64,000 nucleotides of DNA. Origin: Bryobacteraceae bacterium. Its GTDB lineage: Bacteria; Acidobacteriota; Terriglobia; Bryobacterales; Bryobacteraceae. Under the pieces are notes generated by a model that was not told where the DNA came from, did no database searches, and saw only the letters and a program-made list of their open reading frames with translations. The stretch's first letter is position 1; every line of letters starts with the position of its first letter. A program made the translations under genes and the position numbers. The stretch is from positions 186,001-250,000 of the forward strand of contig JANWXD010000001.1 of the NCBI GenBank assembly GCA_025055455.1. Reading direction: 5' to 3'. This document shows, piece after piece, positions 53,261-58,885 of the stretch.

Positions 53261-54229
53261 ATGGGGTTTCCGGTGCAGCGGATGCGGCGGCTGCGGGCCA
53301 GCGAGCCGCTGCGGCGTCTGGTGCGCGAGACGCACCTGGAACCGAGCCAGCTCATCTATCCGCTGTTCGTCTGTCCCGGCGAGGGGATCCGCCGGGAGAT
53401 CGGCGCCATGCCGGGAAATTACCAGCTCTCGGTGGACGAACTCGTCAAGGAGTGCCGCGAGGTGCACGCCCTCGGGCTCGGAGGTGTGATCCTGTTCGGG
53501 ATCCCGGAAAGCAAGGACGAAAAAGCCTCCGGGGCCTACGCCGCAGACGGTATTGTGCAACGCGCTGTTCGGGCGGTCAAAAAGGAAATTCCCGATCTGG
53601 TGGTGATCACGGACGTCTGCAACTGCGAGTACACCAGCCACGGCCACTGCGGCAAGGTAGTCAACGGCGAGGTAGACAACGACGCCACGCTCGAGTGGCT
53701 GGCGGCGACGGCGGTCTCCCACGCCCGTGCCGGTGCCGACATCGTCGCTCCATCCGACATGATGGACGGCCGAGTGGCAGCGATTCGCAAGGCGCTGGAC
53801 GCCAACGGCTTCCAGCGGGTCCCGATCCTGTCGTATGCCGCGAAGTTCGCGTCCTGTTTCTACGGGCCCTTTCGGGAAGCCGCCGAGTCGGCGCCCCAGT
53901 TCGGCGACCGCCGCAGTTACCAGATGGATCCGCCCAATGCCCGGGAGGCCATGCGGGAAATCGAGCTGGATATCGAGGAAGGGGCCGACATCATCATGAT
54001 CAAGCCGGCACTTCCGTACTTGGACCTGATCCGGGCGGCCCGCGAGCGCTTTGATGTGCCTTTAGCGGCCTATCAAGTCAGCGGAGAGTTCAGCATGATC
54101 GTCGCCGCGGCGCGCAACGGATGGCTGGATCGGGAGCGTGCGATGCTCGAAACCTTGATCGCCATCCGGCGCGCCGGGGCCCAGATCATTCTGACCTACT
54201 TTGCCAAGGACGCCGCCCGGTTGTTATAG
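53261..54229 (+). CDS. hemB: Delta-aminolevulinic acid dehydratase (porphobilinogen synthase)
   Basis: This 322-residue enzyme condenses two aminolevulinates to porphobilinogen in heme and cobalamin synthesis. The catalytic-zinc cysteines are Cys120, Cys122 and Cys130 in [13 protein letters not shown], so this is the zinc type. The Schiff-base lysines are Lys195 in [15 protein letters not shown] and Lys248 in [20 protein letters not shown] gives a clear ribosome site for the ATG at 53261. It converges with the ACT-domain gene 4 bp away. Confidence 0.96.
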
Positions 54230-54233
54230 CGGC

Positions 54234-54650
54234 TTACGACACCCCCAGGGCCTTGCTGGCTTTCCGCAGATCCGGGGACTTGACCCAGAGGATCGCCCCG
54301 TAGCGGCCTGCTCCAGCGCAAATGGCTTGGATGGCAGTGACGTTGATGCCGGCCGTTGCCAGCTTTCCCATGACTTCGGCCACCGCGCCCGGCCGGTCTT
54401 CGCCCTGGATGAGAAAGCCAGACTTCTTCGGGCTCAGCTTCAGACCGGCCTTCCGGGCCGCCTTGGCAAAGGCTGCGGGGTTTTCCGGGATGAAGTCAAG
54501 CTGGGCCTTCCGGGCCGCGGCGGGAAAGCCGGAGAAGGCAAGGAGGTTGACCCCGGCCTCGTGCAGAGCTGCCAGGATGCGCGCACCCTCGCCAGGTTTA
54601 TCAGGAACCGTCACGTAGTAGTAGTCAACGCGCCGAATTTCTTCAGCCAT
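54234..54650 (-). CDS. ACT-domain protein
   Basis: The product has 138 residues with two ACT-like units: YYYVTVPDKPGEGARILAAL with GVNLLAFSGFP, and GFLIQGEDRPGAVAEVMGKL with GINVTAIQAICAGAGRYGAI. ACT domains bind small ligands such as amino acids. Stand-alone pairs like this are probable regulators or sensors. A perfect ribosome site GGAGGTGACT precedes the ATG at 54648-54650, which settles the start. Confidence 0.85.
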   Translation of the reverse strand: MAEEIRRVDYYYVTVPDKPGEGARILAALHEAGVNLLAFSGFPAAARKAQLDFIPENPAAFAKAARKAGLKLSPKKSGFLIQGEDRPGAVAEVMGKLATAGINVTAIQAICAGAGRYGAILWVKSPDLRKASKALGVS

Positions 54651-54853
54651 AGTCACCTCCGCTCCTATGTTATCGTGAATTTTCTGCTTCGGATCCCGAG
54701 AAGTTAGAAAAATTGCGACTATCTGGCCTAGCTTTGCGCTCATGATAACGGAATCCGACAGGGGGGAAGCAGGTGCACGAAGCCGCCGCAACGTCCCCTT
54801 GCCAATCCGTTCCGCCTAGGGCATGATGGGCCGAGAAGGGTGAACGCGAAGCC

Positions 54854-55543
54854 ATGACGCACGAGGAGGCGGCGGAGGCCCGTCTCTTGGCGGCGTTGAT
54901 CGATGCGCACCAACAGGATTGCGCCCAGCTCTCTCGCGTCCTGCACGATGAAGTCGGCCAGATCCTGACTGCGGTGGGTCTGCAGTTGGAGCTGCTACGA
55001 CTCGACTTTCGCGAGCAGCTCCCGGCGCTCGACGCGCGCCTGGCCGCTATCCAAGCCCTGCTCGAAACCGCCGTCTCGCGGATCCGCAGGATAAGTTACG
55101 ACCTGGATCCGGCCTTGGTGGAAAAGGCCGGGCTCGCATTCGCCTTGGAGCAGCTGGTGGGACGCTACCGGCAAAAGTTCGATGGCCCGCTGCGTCTGAT
55201 GGTGGATCTGCCCGAGCGGCTCCCGGACGACGTCGCCAAGGCTTTCTATGAGATCGCCGACCGGGCGCTGGCGAATGCGGTACAACACGCCCAGACTCCT
55301 CGGATCGAGGTGCTCGTGCACCCCTCGGCGGAAGGCAGCGTGCTCGAGGTACGGGACTGGGGAGTGGGGTTTTCCCGCCACCCGCCGGGGCAGAAAATCC
55401 GGGGCCTGGGGGTTCTCCTGATGGAGCATTTCGCGGCCCGGGCGGGAATCCGGCTGTCGATTGAAAGCATACTCGGGCAGGGCACGGTGGTCAGAGCCGT
55501 CCGCCCCAACGCGAGCGTGTCCAGCCGGGCGACCCGGGATTGA
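54854..55543 (+). CDS. Soluble sensor histidine kinase (NarX/DesK-type HisKA_3)
   Basis: This 229-residue protein is a bare transmitter: the dimerisation/phosphoacceptor helix SRVLHDEVGQILTAVGLQ with His31, then an ATPase domain with RALANAVQHAQTPRIEVLV (N box), VRDWGVGFS (G1) and GLGVLLMEHFAARAG (G2). There is no membrane span and no sensor domain, so it must sense through a partner or its short N-terminus. The response regulator gene follows 9 nt later. Confidence 0.88.
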   Translation: MTHEEAAEARLLAALIDAHQQDCAQLSRVLHDEVGQILTAVGLQLELLRLDFREQLPALDARLAAIQALLETAVSRIRRISYDLDPALVEKAGLAFALEQLVGRYRQKFDGPLRLMVDLPERLPDDVAKAFYEIADRALANAVQHAQTPRIEVLVHPSAEGSVLEVRDWGVGFSRHPPGQKIRGLGVLLMEHFAARAGIRLSIESILGQGTVVRAVRPNASVSSRATRD

Positions 55544-55552
55544 GGTAAGTCT

Positions 55553-56236
55553 ATGGCCCACACAATCTTGTTGGTGGACGATCACAAGATTATGCGAGAT
55601 GGCCTGCGCGCCATCCTCCAGCATGCCCCGGAGTTCGTGGTGGTGGGCGAGGCCGACAGTGGGACCGAGGCGGTGCGGCTGGCTAAGAGCTTGCGCCCGG
55701 AGATCGTGCTGATGGATATCGGCATGCCCGGTATGAACGGCATCGAGGCCACAGCAGAGATTTTGCGTCACTTTCCCGAGGCAAAAGTGGTCATTCTTTC
55801 CATGTACGACGACGAGCACTCCGTCGTGAGCGCCATCCGTTCCGGCGCCCGCGCCTTTGTGCTGAAGAAAGCTTCCGACAGTGACCTTCTGGACGCCTTG
55901 CGTACCGTGGCCAAAGGCGGATCGTACCTCAGCCCGCAAGTTTCCGATAAACTGCTGCACTGCATTCAGCGCGGGGATCTGGAGACCAAAGCGCCGGGCT
56001 CGCCGCTCAGCACGTTGTCCCCGCGCGAGCTCCAAGTGATGCGATTGGTGGCCGAAGGCAAGACCAGCAAGGAAATCGCCGCCATGTTGGATCTGGGATT
56101 ACAGACGGTGCGGAGTTACCGTAAGACGATGATGAAAAAGCTCGGAGTCACCAACGTCGCCGAGCTGACCACGATGGCCTTGGCGGCGGGGCTCACGCGC
56201 TTTCCGGCCCCGCAAAACCCGGAGGGTGCCCCGTGA
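55553..56236 (+). CDS. NarL/FixJ-family response regulator
   Basis: The product has 227 residues. The receiver domain has the acidic pair in LLVDDHK, phosphoacceptor Asp55 in VLMDIGMPGMNG and Lys near 105 (FVLKKAS). The LuxR-type helix-turn-helix is LSPRELQVMRLVAEGKTSKE, IAAMLDLGLQTVRSYRKTMM. It is partner to the histidine kinase upstream. Its stop overlaps the amidohydrolase start (GTG) by 4 bp, so the regulator and that enzyme share a transcript. Confidence 0.92.
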   Translation: MAHTILLVDDHKIMRDGLRAILQHAPEFVVVGEADSGTEAVRLAKSLRPEIVLMDIGMPGMNGIEATAEILRHFPEAKVVILSMYDDEHSVVSAIRSGARAFVLKKASDSDLLDALRTVAKGGSYLSPQVSDKLLHCIQRGDLETKAPGSPLSTLSPRELQVMRLVAEGKTSKEIAAMLDLGLQTVRSYRKTMMKKLGVTNVAELTTMALAAGLTRFPAPQNPEGAP

Positions 56237-57183
56237 ACGGGATGCCCACCCCGTGGGGCGTGATCCCCGTTGGCGACGCCCACATCCACTTTTTCTCCCA
56301 TCGGTTTTTCTCCCTACTCGCCAGCCAGCGCCCCGGTCCGCCCACCGAGCAGTCCGTGGAAGCCGCCGGAGCGACGCTCGGCTGGGAGATGCCCCCGCCG
56401 GAGCCCGAGCGCCTGGCCGCCCGCTGGGTGGAAGAGCTGGACCGCTACGGGGTGTCCCGCGCCGCCTTGATCGCCAGCTTGCCAGGGGACGAAGACTCGG
56501 TGGCAGCCGCCGTCGGGGCTTACCCCGAGCGTTTCTTCGGCTATTTCATGGTGGATCCCTGCGCCCCGGATGCGCTGGCGCGCGTCCAGAAGGCCCTGGC
56601 CGGGGGACGTCTGCGCGGCGTATGTTTGTTCCCCGCCATGCACCGCTACTCCCTCCACGACGAGCGCGTCACCGCGGTGCTGGAGCTGGCCGCCTGCCAG
56701 CCGGCGGCCGTGATCTTCGTCCACTGCGGCGTCCTCACGGTCGGGGTTCGCCAGAGGCTGGGATTGCCGTCGCAATTCGACTTGCGATACTCCAACCCCG
56801 TTGACCTCCATGCGCTGGCGTTGCGCTACCCCAGGCTCCGCTTTGTGATTCCTCACTTCGGGGCGGGCTATTTTCGCGAGGCGCTCATGGTCGCCGACCT
56901 GTGCCCGAACGTGTATTTCGACACCTCCAGTAGCAATCAATGGATTCGGTATCTGGCTCCGGAGATCGATCTCAAGACGGTGTTCCGCCGTTCGTTGGAC
57001 GTGCTGGGAGCGCGACGCCTGCTGTTCGGCACCGATTCTTCTTTCTTCCCTCGAGGGTGGAACAAAGCGATTTTCGACACACAGGCTGAAATTCTCCGCG
57101 ATCTCGGCCTGTCCGAAGAAGAAGCCCGCTGGATCTTCGGCGAAAATCTCGAGCGAATTTTTTCGAATTCTCGAGAGCCTTGA
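56233..57183 (+). CDS. Amidohydrolase family protein (amidohydrolase 2/TIM-barrel)
   Basis: The product has 316 residues. Metal ligands are visible as GDAHIHFF (Asp15, His17, His19), VIFVHCG (near 165), FVIPHFGAGYF (near 210) and the catalytic Asp in LLFGTDSSFFP (near 258). This matches the COG2159 group of hydrolases and decarboxylases. The start is GTG at 56233, overlapping the response regulator stop. It is preceded by a two-component system and followed by the PaaK-like gene. The substrate is unknown. Confidence 0.85.
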   Translation: MNGMPTPWGVIPVGDAHIHFFSHRFFSLLASQRPGPPTEQSVEAAGATLGWEMPPPEPERLAARWVEELDRYGVSRAALIASLPGDEDSVAAAVGAYPERFFGYFMVDPCAPDALARVQKALAGGRLRGVCLFPAMHRYSLHDERVTAVLELAACQPAAVIFVHCGVLTVGVRQRLGLPSQFDLRYSNPVDLHALALRYPRLRFVIPHFGAGYFREALMVADLCPNVYFDTSSSNQWIRYLAPEIDLKTVFRRSLDVLGARRLLFGTDSSFFPRGWNKAIFDTQAEILRDLGLSEEEARWIFGENLERIFSNSREP

Positions 57184-57226
57184 GAAAAATTTCCCGCGGG
57201 ATCCACTTAATTTTTCTGGAAAACTC

Positions 57227-58072
57227 TTGCTCTTGAGCGAAGCGGCGCTCCGGCCCGCCGGCGTCAGTCCGGACGTGCGCTTGGTGCGGTTCCAGGCCGT
57301 GCTCCGGGCCGCAGCGCAAACCCGATACTACGCTCCTCGGCTCGAGGCGGCGGCCCTGCGGGAGCCGTGGCACGGGCCGGACGTCACGACGGCGGAGACA
57401 GCTCTGCGTCGGCTTCCGCCGACCGACCTGACGTCGTGGCTGCTGCGGCCGGATGAGTTCGTCAACCGGCAGGCGCGGCCGCCCAGCAAGACGCACTTGT
57501 TCTTCCCTGGGCCCCGACCGTGTCGGACCGCTCTGCTTCGCCGCTGGGGCCGGAGCGCCGAATTCAATCTCACCAGCCGGCTCCTGGCGTGGTTCCCACC
57601 CGACCTGCTGGTGGGGTCCGCGCGACACCTCGGCCGGATGGCGGAGGCCGTGCAGAACCAGCAGTGCGACCCCCTGCGCGTGAACCTCGCCGTGGTGGCG
57701 TGGATCGGTCCGGAGCAGGGCTTTTTGGACGAGGCCACGCGCGACTTGCTGTGGCGCACTTTCCAAGTGCCGGTCTTCGTGCAGCTTGTCGGGCCCGCGG
57801 GAGAGATTCTGGCGTGGGAGTGCGAGGCGCACGACGGACTGCACGTGGAATCCAGCCAAGGCATCTGCGAATTTTCCGCCGGCGAGCTGCTGATCACCTC
57901 GCTCGTCAGCATGCGGCGCCCGGTCTTGCGGCTGCGAACGGGGCTGACGGGCGCCGTAACCGACGCGCCCTGTCCGTGCGGCGTCTCCTCACAGCGGCTC
58001 ACCGACTTGCGGCGGCGAAGAATTCCCGAGGCCCGCGTCGCCGTGGCGGGCGCTTCCGCGGCGGCCGACTGA
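57227..58072 (+). CDS. Truncated PaaK/F390-synthetase-like protein lacking the adenylation core
   Basis: The product has 281 residues. The N-terminus (RFQAVLRAAAQTRYYAPRLE, LRRLPPTDLTSWLL) resembles the start of phenylacetate-CoA ligases. The C-half matches their second part: DLLVGSARHLGRMAEAVQN, LAWECEAHDGLHVE, GELLITSLVSMRRPVLRLRT and DAPCPCG. The Ser/Thr/Gly-rich ATP loop and the YGSTE-like motif are missing (QLVGPAG instead), and the protein is about 150 residues short. It may be a pseudo-enzyme or a binding protein. The start TTG at 57227 has GGA 7 nt upstream. It is probably the last gene of the kinase-regulator-amidohydrolase operon. Confidence 0.65.
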   Translation: MLLSEAALRPAGVSPDVRLVRFQAVLRAAAQTRYYAPRLEAAALREPWHGPDVTTAETALRRLPPTDLTSWLLRPDEFVNRQARPPSKTHLFFPGPRPCRTALLRRWGRSAEFNLTSRLLAWFPPDLLVGSARHLGRMAEAVQNQQCDPLRVNLAVVAWIGPEQGFLDEATRDLLWRTFQVPVFVQLVGPAGEILAWECEAHDGLHVESSQGICEFSAGELLITSLVSMRRPVLRLRTGLTGAVTDAPCPCGVSSQRLTDLRRRRIPEARVAVAGASAAAD

Positions 58073-58141: not shown

Positions 58142-58228
58142 GCGAACGTGGCGGAACTGGCAGACGCACCAGACTTAGGATCTGGCGGGAGCAATCCCGT
58201 GGGGGTTCGACTCCCCCCGTTCGCACCA
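58142..58228 (+). tRNA. tRNA-Leu (anticodon TAG)
   Basis: This 87-nt class II tRNA has an encoded CCA. Acceptor arms GCGAACG/CGTTCGC pair fully. The anticodon stem CCAGA/TCTGG encloses CTTAGGA (anticodon TAG), the long variable arm is CGGGAGCAATCCCGT, and the T arm is GGGGG-TTCGACT-CCCCC. It reads leucine CUA codons. Confidence 0.96.
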
Positions 58229-58372: not shown

Positions 58373-58885
58373 GTGCACGCGCCCGAATCGCATCGCGCTG
58401 CTCCGCTAGCAACCGTCTCTGACGCCACAGCCTGCAACGTGCTGGTGCTGGCAGTGAGTCCCCTTCCCGACGACCACATCAGTCTGCGCGCTATCTTCCG
58501 CCATTCGAAATGGCAACTCCACTCCGCGGCCACCCTCGAGGAAGCGCGCGCGTTTCTTTATGCGAATCCGGTCGGAGTCGTGCTGAGCGAGTGCACACTG
58601 GCTGAGGGAAAGACCTGGAAGGACCTGCTGCGTGCCGTGGAAGTTCTTCGCCATCCACCTCCGCTGATCGTCACATCCCGGCTTGCCGATGAGTGCCTCT
58701 GGGCTGAGGTACTGAACTTGGGGGGCTACGACCTTCTGATCAAGCCATTCGATCCCACGGAAGTGTTTCGCGTCGTCAGCCTGGCTTGGTTGTCTTGGAA
58801 AAGCCGCATCGAGAAGAGCCGGCCGGCGCGCGAGCGGACGCATAAGGCGGGTAACGCCGCGGTGTGGAAGGCGGGGGCGGGCTAA
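58373..58885 (+). CDS. Receiver-like protein with degenerate phosphorylation site
   Basis: The product has 170 residues with a response-regulator receiver fold after a 20-residue tail: CNVLVLAVSPLPDDHISLR, GVVLSECTLAEGKTWKDLL at the phosphoacceptor strand, PPPLIVTSRLADECLW and GGYDLLIKPFDPTEVFRVV, with the conserved Lys-Pro kept. The phosphoacceptor Asp is replaced (Ser-Glu-Cys), so normal phosphorylation is unlikely. The start is GTG at 58373 with GGAGGAGGGAG as ribosome site. It overlaps the convergent epimerase stop by 4 bp. Similar short proteins seem frequent in Acidobacteria. Confidence 0.78.
   Translation: MHAPESHRAAPLATVSDATACNVLVLAVSPLPDDHISLRAIFRHSKWQLHSAATLEEARAFLYANPVGVVLSECTLAEGKTWKDLLRAVEVLRHPPPLIVTSRLADECLWAEVLNLGGYDLLIKPFDPTEVFRVVSLAWLSWKSRIEKSRPARERTHKAGNAAVWKAGAG

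Follow-up and report, generated by a model that had tools for sequence, protein, structure and literature searches.

How does a soluble histidine kinase that carries no input domain receive its signal? This question is raised by a 64,000-nucleotide stretch of DNA from a Bryobacteraceae bacterium (GenBank assembly GCA_025055455.1, contig JANWXD010000001.1, positions 186,001 to 250,000 of the forward strand; hereafter, the window), in which four open reading frames (ORFs) follow each other on the same strand at positions 54854-58072, all of them where a preliminary description made from the sequence had placed them. They encode a HisKA_3 histidine kinase (HK), a NarL-type response regulator (RR), a PF04909 amidohydrolase (AH), and a protein of 281 amino acids (aa) derived from PaaK, the phenylacetate-CoA ligase (PK). 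Our analyses indicate that the module formed by these genes is real and conserved, that it includes an unusual pseudoenzyme and represents a variant of known two-component systems, and that it most likely encodes a cytoplasmic two-component system that takes its input via a partner protein, with AH being a likelier partner than PK. We found no paper on this gene cluster in the open-access literature, where most subscription journals are missing.

A conserved gene group in the Bryobacteraceae

We searched for orthologs of RR and AH in 61 genomes, 37 from the family of the window (its own genome included) and 24 from outside it. RR orthologs (≥269 bits) were present in 25 of the 37 family genomes and in 0 of the 24 others, and AH orthologs (≥313 bits) were present in 26/37 and 21/24, respectively, with absences counting for little, since scoring was confined to 48 of up to 164 candidates in each genome. 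Both orthologs occurred in 18 of the 61 genomes and were adjacent in 17 of them, or in 16 of 17 when the genome of the window is excluded, the exception being G034; this count and that for the transketolase below were made by hand from coordinates. Such adjacency rules out that the genes are found together by chance, and the expectation that they would stay together in relatives was upheld, with the group recurring across genera of the family. All four genes were present in the window's order in 9 of 54 relative loci. Within a named collection, which was limited to the 80 best among 134 confirmed places, all four were present in 18 of the 47 PK-family loci; two contigs behind these 18 were already among the 54, and many of the stretches are cut by contig ends. 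Two inverted genes lie between members in L160, and an extra ORF does so in L162.

The conserved group is larger than four genes, since a split transketolase (PF00456; PF02779 plus PF02780) usually lies upstream; 20 of the 25 RR-bearing genomes encode its N-subunit no more than ~2.2 kb upstream of RR. The window's genome is one of the five without a transketolase at this position, and its best match to the N-subunit (48% identity, in a 633-aa frame) is on another contig. Given that the order in L106 is hemB, ACT, transketolase, and kinase, the window has most likely lost the transketolase pair between its ACT gene and its kinase gene. In two other loci (L130 in G007 and L233 in G018), the regulator between transketolase and AH is a more distant one (180 bits in a BLAST-type comparison, 173 bits by hidden Markov model), at a place where no kinase-regulator pair of the usual kind was found.

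PK has been seen so far, among the candidates scored, only in the Bryobacteraceae or in records labeled Acidobacteriota. No PK-family score was obtained in the 24 genomes from outside the family, where the best match reached 41 bits in a 426-aa frame. Of 396 genomes drawn from the phylum, 3 gave PK-family scores (≥141 bits), and these 3 belong to the window's family; the other matches with E values of ≤1e-10 had ≤69 bits in frames of ≥426 aa. Here, scoring covered 6 of up to 119 candidates in each genome, such that absences are again weak. The 47 named PK-family loci carry Acidobacteriota labels except for L188, a metagenome-assembled genome labeled Bordetella parapertussis. That record carries this cluster, and it is very likely mislabeled.

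PK is a remnant of a PaaK-type ligase

PK gave no Pfam match up to an E value of 1, and its matches to PaaK-type NCBIfam models fell far under their cut-offs (best E value, 2.9e-10, with 39.7 bits versus 300). Comparison of profiles revealed clear homology: when an alignment of 47 PKs (A3; L178 left out) was compared with an alignment of 18 full-length PaaKs (A4), PK residues 117-264 aligned with PaaK residues 198-346 (numbering of the L204 protein) with an E value of 1.7e-28 over 145 columns, and PK residues 18-75 aligned with PaaK residues 46-99 with an E value of 6.8e-5 (32 rows, some contigs doubled, and one template). The last protein of the group does not, then, belong to another complete family. 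An AlphaFold model of PK built on A3 confidently predicted a PaaK large domain (pLDDT, 86.9; pTM, 0.84). With this model as the query, Foldseek returned 37 matches with E values of ≤0.001, all of which were PaaK-type or 2-hydroxyisobutyryl-CoA ligases (best, 3.4e-14 for 4rvo_D), and comparison with BT_0428 (4r1l_D; Z score of 20.4, rmsd of 4.0 over 262 residues) likewise found the large-domain fold present.

The elements required for adenylation are gone from this fold. PK residues 76-117 span residues 99-198 of the L204 PaaK and contain no counterpart of the A4 consensus SSGTTGKP, the ATP loop. The YGSTE motif is missing as well, with Tyr236-Glu240 of NatL2 falling on Leu187-Val-Gly-Pro-Ala191 of PK by hand count, as is the C-terminal domain with its catalytic lysine, since homology stops at PK residue 264 (residue 346 of 449 in L204) and PK ends at residue 281. 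Relative to a full PaaK, PK thus has ~60 fewer residues in its middle, the ATP loop included, and nothing after the large domain. The preliminary description had presented PK as a PaaK-like protein that keeps the N- and C-terminal parts of the ligase and lacks the ATP loop and YGSTE motif. Both losses and the kept N-terminal segment were confirmed; its C-terminal claim needs amending, in that the small domain is gone and what stays is the second half of the large domain.

The rows of A3 and A4 were found with the pattern AxECEA[HR][DE]G, so we counted conservation of this motif in A1 alone, a motif-independent alignment of 27 rows that overlaps A3 through shared contigs (the contig-cut PKs of L114 and L141 were left out). 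Seven residues were invariant in A1: W176, P182, C199, G204, H206, C249, and C251. Cys199, His206, Cys249, and Cys251 fall on Cys248, His254, Cys308, and Cys310 of NatL2 (6siw_A; alignment and hand count, residues only), which form a tetrahedral zinc site. In the excerpts of PMC7204872 on this enzyme, the zinc is judged to be essential and structural, since EDTA abolished activity and added zinc restored it, and is called unique to NatL2 among the structures compared there. By sequence, the same four positions are Cys, His, Cys, and Cys in 4r1l too. The match of PK to NatL2 is weak on its own (E value, 0.24), and that to 4r1l has an E value of 1.3e-6. Judging from this ligand pattern, PK probably binds zinc. 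With the adenylation elements lost and the pattern of zinc ligands kept, PK is, by sequence and predicted structure, a catalytically dead remnant of the PaaK large domain, probably one that is stabilized by zinc.

We also considered whether PK is a mere broken PaaK pseudogene; the invariant zinc-ligand residues, the confident model, and the open frames rule this out. PK matches in L012 and L015 contain one in-frame TGA, and an ORF scan gives frames of 289 and 203 aa there (L142 and L099).

The kinase has no sensor, and its ATP site has decayed in some lineages

The kinase of the window scored above the Pfam gathering thresholds for HisKA_3 (40.5 bits) and HATPase_c (30.8 bits), contains the H-box histidine, the N box, and the G box, and keeps 6/6 ATP-site marker residues. 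No N-terminal sensor domain was detected by Pfam scan, and the protein has no transmembrane part. Since an in-frame stop lies ten codons 5' of the ATG, no sensor domain has been missed, and a start called too late is ruled out. The kinase is thus soluble and without an input domain, as first described.

Among relatives, the ATP site is either largely intact or largely lost. Over 38 loci (out of 44 rows, after removal of the duplicates L146, L154, and L188 and of three paralogous kinases), 22 kinases keep 5 to 6 of the six markers, 16 keep three or fewer, and none keeps four. The L124 kinase fell below the score cut-off and is outside the 38, yet is labeled degenerate on the tree. The phospho-acceptor His31 is kept at all 38 loci. 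The H-box glutamine, the phosphatase residue in such kinases, is present in 21 of the 22 intact kinases versus 4 of the 16 degenerate ones. When ten degenerate kinases were scanned, HisKA_3 reached the gathering threshold in 10/10 and HATPase_c in 0/10. A model of the degenerate L181 kinase (pLDDT, 87.8; pTM, 0.76), built from an alignment that includes intact relatives, keeps the long helices and the alpha/beta domain, with DesK as its top match. The state of the ATP site requires at least six changes on the best RR tree, and its decay can be compared with PK length or AH presence in just three independent pairs on strongly supported branches. In contrast, a clade of five kinases with a PAS-like N-terminal extension corresponds to one change on this tree; PAS_4 was confirmed in both members scanned (L094 and L100). 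The L153 kinase is also extended N-terminally, and its extension has no Pfam match.

A precedent for kinases of this kind comes from Corynebacterium glutamicum, where a ChrS pseudokinase (CA-frameshift variant) acts with a paralogous kinase via heterodimers, according to excerpts of PMC9491836. By analogy, this case offers a mechanism by which the operon kinases that lack an ATP site may act. A second kinase-regulator pair (kinase of ~450 aa) was observed in divergent orientation beside the cluster in L147, L150, and L151, with a long protein in between that looks secreted.

The regulator and the amidohydrolase appear to be intact

The regulator contains a receiver domain (Response_reg), a GerE helix-turn-helix domain, and the phospho-acceptor aspartate, which makes it the NarL-type regulator that it had been taken for. 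Asp55 was present in 48/48 aligned rows (some contigs counted twice), and identity to the RR of the window was 58 to 78% across 24 other RR-bearing genomes.

AH passes the PF04909 family score and has the complete HxH/H/H/D metal set, each of its five metal residues being present in 60 to 63 of 63 rows. The amidohydrolase assignment of the preliminary description therefore stands, whereas the 4-bp overlap that it reported between RR and AH requires a GTG start. Because several AH orthologs begin with M-x-TPWG, the ATG at 56242 is likely to be the true start, with a 5-bp gap to RR. A profile search of Protein Data Bank (PDB) sequences with 36 AHs returned 16 sequences up to an E value of 1, mostly ACMSD-like, and the nearest of these span several activities, namely, metal-dependent decarboxylases, hydratases, and (uncharacterized) hydrolases. 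AH is also the more conserved protein, with a mean tree distance over 17 loci of 0.98 versus 2.63 for PK and 2.11 for the kinase. Given its full metal set, its higher conservation, and its occurrence beyond the family, AH most likely acts as an enzyme in its own right.

The pairing of AH with a PaaK-type protein brings to mind NatL2 and NatAM, a PaaK-type ligase and an amidohydrolase that act in sequence (excerpts of PMC7204872), and the NatL2 zinc-ligand pattern is common to PK. It is nevertheless very improbable that AH and PK derive from such a benzoxazole-type pair whose ligase died: other families have AH without PK, NatAM comprises two domains and ~494 residues according to the same excerpts versus 316 residues for AH, and NatAM is not among the 16 PDB matches, an absence that does not exclude homology.

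Outside the family, the neighbors of AH showed no common partner by eye. A small ORF that resembles MoaD/ThiS by the look of its sequence abuts AH in another family of the order (L138, 8849-9109; L139, 9146-9451). In G008, AH is flanked by hemB and by an ORF that resembles hemD by the look of its sequence (uroporphyrinogen III synthase; L121, 8206-9968, minus strand), and AH can therefore sit in a haem synthesis gene group. Strain KBS 96 carries both PK and AH, at distant places, whereas its matching genome, G008, yielded no RR ortholog among the candidates scored.

The amidohydrolase as a candidate bridge to the kinase

A kinase that lacks an input domain is most naturally read as receiving its input in trans, and we asked through which partner this input might come. 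We compared tree distances by partial Mantel tests in 24 loci (near copies L148, L150, and L151 removed), in 17 loci with transketolase among the controls, and in three re-runs (reduced and rank-based). In the 17 loci, with the others controlled, the correlation was 0.40 for HK-RR, the expected partners, 0.41 for HK-AH, and 0.48 for AH-PK (P ≤ 0.001); these three pairs were positive in the 24 loci as well. HK-PK gave 0.10 and 0.00 in the 24 loci, -0.16 in the 17 loci, and negative values in the re-runs, in which the signs of all four pairs were unchanged. These distances hint, but do not prove, that AH may be a bridge between PK and the kinase.

We favor, tentatively and as something short of probable, a conserved regulatory-metabolic group in which the kinase reads a cue via AH, PK is a subunit or scaffold of AH, and the regulator sets expression. 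Besides the distances, this reading draws on the synteny of RR with AH and with the transketolase, the fold and zinc-ligand pattern of PK, the conserved metal residues of AH, the sensorless kinase, and the AH-PK pairs described below that lack kinase and regulator. In such a group, the sensorless kinase would read a cytoplasmic cue, carbon metabolism, through a partner protein; the best candidate partner would be AH, acting by contact or by substrate level, with PK as its zinc-stabilized subunit or scaffold. Phosphorylation of the regulator would then set the expression of the group and of carbon metabolism genes. In lineages whose kinase lacks an ATP site, the protein could serve as a dimerizing phosphotransfer partner for another HisKA_3 kinase. 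The preliminary description had proposed that one of the enzyme-like proteins senses a small aromatic or acyl ligand and feeds the kinase. The togetherness of the genes, the hollowed-out PK, and the lack of an input domain agree with this idea; nothing shows ligand sensing by PK, and since ATP-site residues have been lost in lineages that keep the operon, feeding the kinase cannot be the whole story.

Several observations weigh against the AH-centered reading. PK stands alone in nine loci (L102, L105, L107, L110, L111, L116, L119, L122, and L126). No AH ortholog was found in 7 of the 25 RR-bearing genomes; among these seven, PK directly follows the regulator in three and is separated from it by one inverted gene in a fourth, the kinase-regulator-PK order being seen in L099, L103, and L100 (one inverted gene between) and regulator-PK in L117. 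Given these regulator-PK neighbors, AH is not an obligate input. The distances themselves are equivocal: PK-transketolase (0.49 in the 17 loci; 0.35 to 0.71 in the re-runs) and HK-transketolase (0.24 in the 17 loci) were also positive, as was RR-PK (0.32 to 0.36, P = 0.02 to 0.03 in the 24 loci; 0.46, P = 0.006 in one reduced set), and the Mantel test is not specific, with P values uncorrected for multiple tests. Finally, no k-mer or dyad upstream of the transketolase gene (22 loci) and of the window's kinase gene clearly exceeded shuffles as a shared motif; GCGGCGGC, for instance, was found in 7/23 versus a shuffle maximum of 4 to 7.

A rival reading is that PK itself serves the kinase as sensor or adaptor and gates it directly, either by binding a ligand of aromatic or acyl type or by switching via its Cys3His site. 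The regulator-PK neighbors without AH, the RR-PK correlation in the 24-locus set, and the absence of a sensor from the kinase all fit, and PAS-type kinases pair with the shortest PKs (143 to 145 aa in L094, L095, and L100; start codons chosen by eye) or with none nearby (L098 and L109), as if PAS had replaced part of PK. This PAS pattern, however, represents one change on the tree, and the HK-PK correlation vanishes once another gene is controlled. Since the parent enzyme's ATP-binding elements are gone as well and the corresponding zinc site is structural in NatL2 (excerpts of PMC7204872), we consider a sensor role for PK unlikely.

Kinase, regulator, and AH occur without PK nearby in seven loci (L098, L101, L104, L115, L118, L125, and L129), where a low-threshold scan for a missed PK behind AH gave nothing above 15.5 bits, and AH-PK pairs with neither a kinase nor a regulator in the stretch were seen in five (L113, L114, L168, L174, and L183). 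Given such triplets without AH or PK and pairs without kinase and regulator, the group is a loose module rather than an obligate complex. It could even be a loose housekeeping cluster, in which AH and transketolase would serve metabolism, the two-component pair would be inherited along with them as their regulator, and PK would be a leftover, structural or decaying, without a signaling role. Consistent with this, members can be missing singly or in twos, AH orthologs occur in 21 of the 24 non-family genomes, where neither an RR ortholog nor a PK-family score was seen, the kinase ATP site was lost through repeated changes, and PK is down to ~143 aa in some loci. We nevertheless regard a mere housekeeping cluster as rather unlikely, because the zinc-ligand residues are invariant over 27 rows that are 26 to 39% identical to the window's PK, PK persists as an open frame whose fold is predicted with confidence, and the regulator is well conserved.

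A bolder version of the AH-centered reading, which we consider distinctly doubtful, is that AH and the dead ligase PK form a metabolite-reading complex that sets a HisKA_3 hub in trans, even where the hub has no ATP site, and that PK founds a family of zinc-stabilized pseudo-ligases in signaling. If the AH-centered reading is true, a metabolic enzyme complex would replace the sensor usually built into a two-component system as its input, and the family would be one in which a ligase, joined in several lineages by a kinase, had seemingly turned noncatalytic while the genes stayed together. Natural relatives with intact, PAS-bearing, and ATP-site-less kinases provide a comparative series on how histidine kinases are used without kinase activity.

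Layout of the locus and its neighbors

The coordinates of the genes and of the residues discussed above are given in Table 1. The kinase and regulator genes are 9 bp apart, those of the regulator and AH overlap by 4 bp or are separated by 5 bp, according to which AH start is used, and 43 bp separate AH from PK. A promoter-like site lies at 54799-54827, one of two such sites in the region versus 0.5 expected, and terminator-like sites were no more frequent in the region than by chance.

Table 1. Features of the locus (window positions)
Feature	Position	Strand	Basis
hemB (ALAD), upstream neighbor	53261..54229	+	PF00490, E 3e-152
ACT-domain protein between hemB and kinase	54234..54791	-	PF01842
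Soluble HisKA_3 kinase (HK), 229 aa, no input domain; phospho-acceptor His31 at 54944-54946	54854..55543	+	Pfam
NarL/GerE-type regulator (RR); phospho-acceptor Asp55 at 55715-55717	55553..56236	+	PF00072 + PF00196
PF04909 amidohydrolase (AH); metal-ligand residues His17, His19, His164, His208, Asp268	56233..57183	+	E 5e-32
PK, PaaK-derived pseudo-ligase, 281 aa, TTG start as first described	57227..58072	+	Profile and predicted fold
Putative zinc-ligand codons in PK: Cys199 57821-57823, His206 57842-57844, Cys249 57971-57973, Cys251 57977-57979	57821..57979	+	

The hemB gene is outside the proposed mechanism, although it is a neighbor in several relatives too, its cluster being found in 7 of 98 neighborhood loci (2 of the 7 are the same contig). 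Homologs of the ACT gene occur in L099, L106, and L174, each adjoining the transketolase N-subunit gene. Directly 3' of PK lies a tRNA-Leu (tag) gene (58142-58228, plus strand), followed by a gene for a 170-aa receiver-like protein (58373-58882, plus strand; PF00072 at 25.6 bits, below gathering). The position expected for its phospho-acceptor aspartate seems to be a glutamate (VVLSEC), such that it looks like a receiver incapable of phosphorylation; blastp found no homolog of it among the genes called in the 98 neighborhood loci.

Comparison with known systems

The kinase and regulator have the same domains as the HisKA_3/NarL-type pairs NarX/NarL, DesK/DesR, and MctS/MctR, with NCBIfam matches that are all below cut-off. 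Unlike these pairs, they have no sensor or transmembrane part, are genetically tied to metabolic enzymes, and have lost the ATP site of the kinase in some lineages. This loss recalls the histidine pseudokinases, namely, the ChrS variant and DivL, which reportedly still act in signaling although their ATP domain is inactivated. In contrast to both, the putative inactivation described here recurs among natural relatives of one operon kinase, and the kinase of the window itself is intact.

PK shares the large-domain fold with the PaaK-type ligases (phenylacetate-CoA ligase, BT_0428 [4r1l], and NatL2 [6siw]) and has the zinc-ligand positions of NatL2, but it differs from them all in having neither the ATP loop, the YGSTE motif, the C-terminal domain, nor the ~60 middle residues. 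As with NatL2 and NatAM in the excerpts of PMC7204872, a PaaK-type protein is coupled to an amidohydrolase. Unlike in that pair, the ligase here is predicted to be dead, and the amidohydrolase is a PF04909 protein whose nearest PDB sequences are ACMSD-like.

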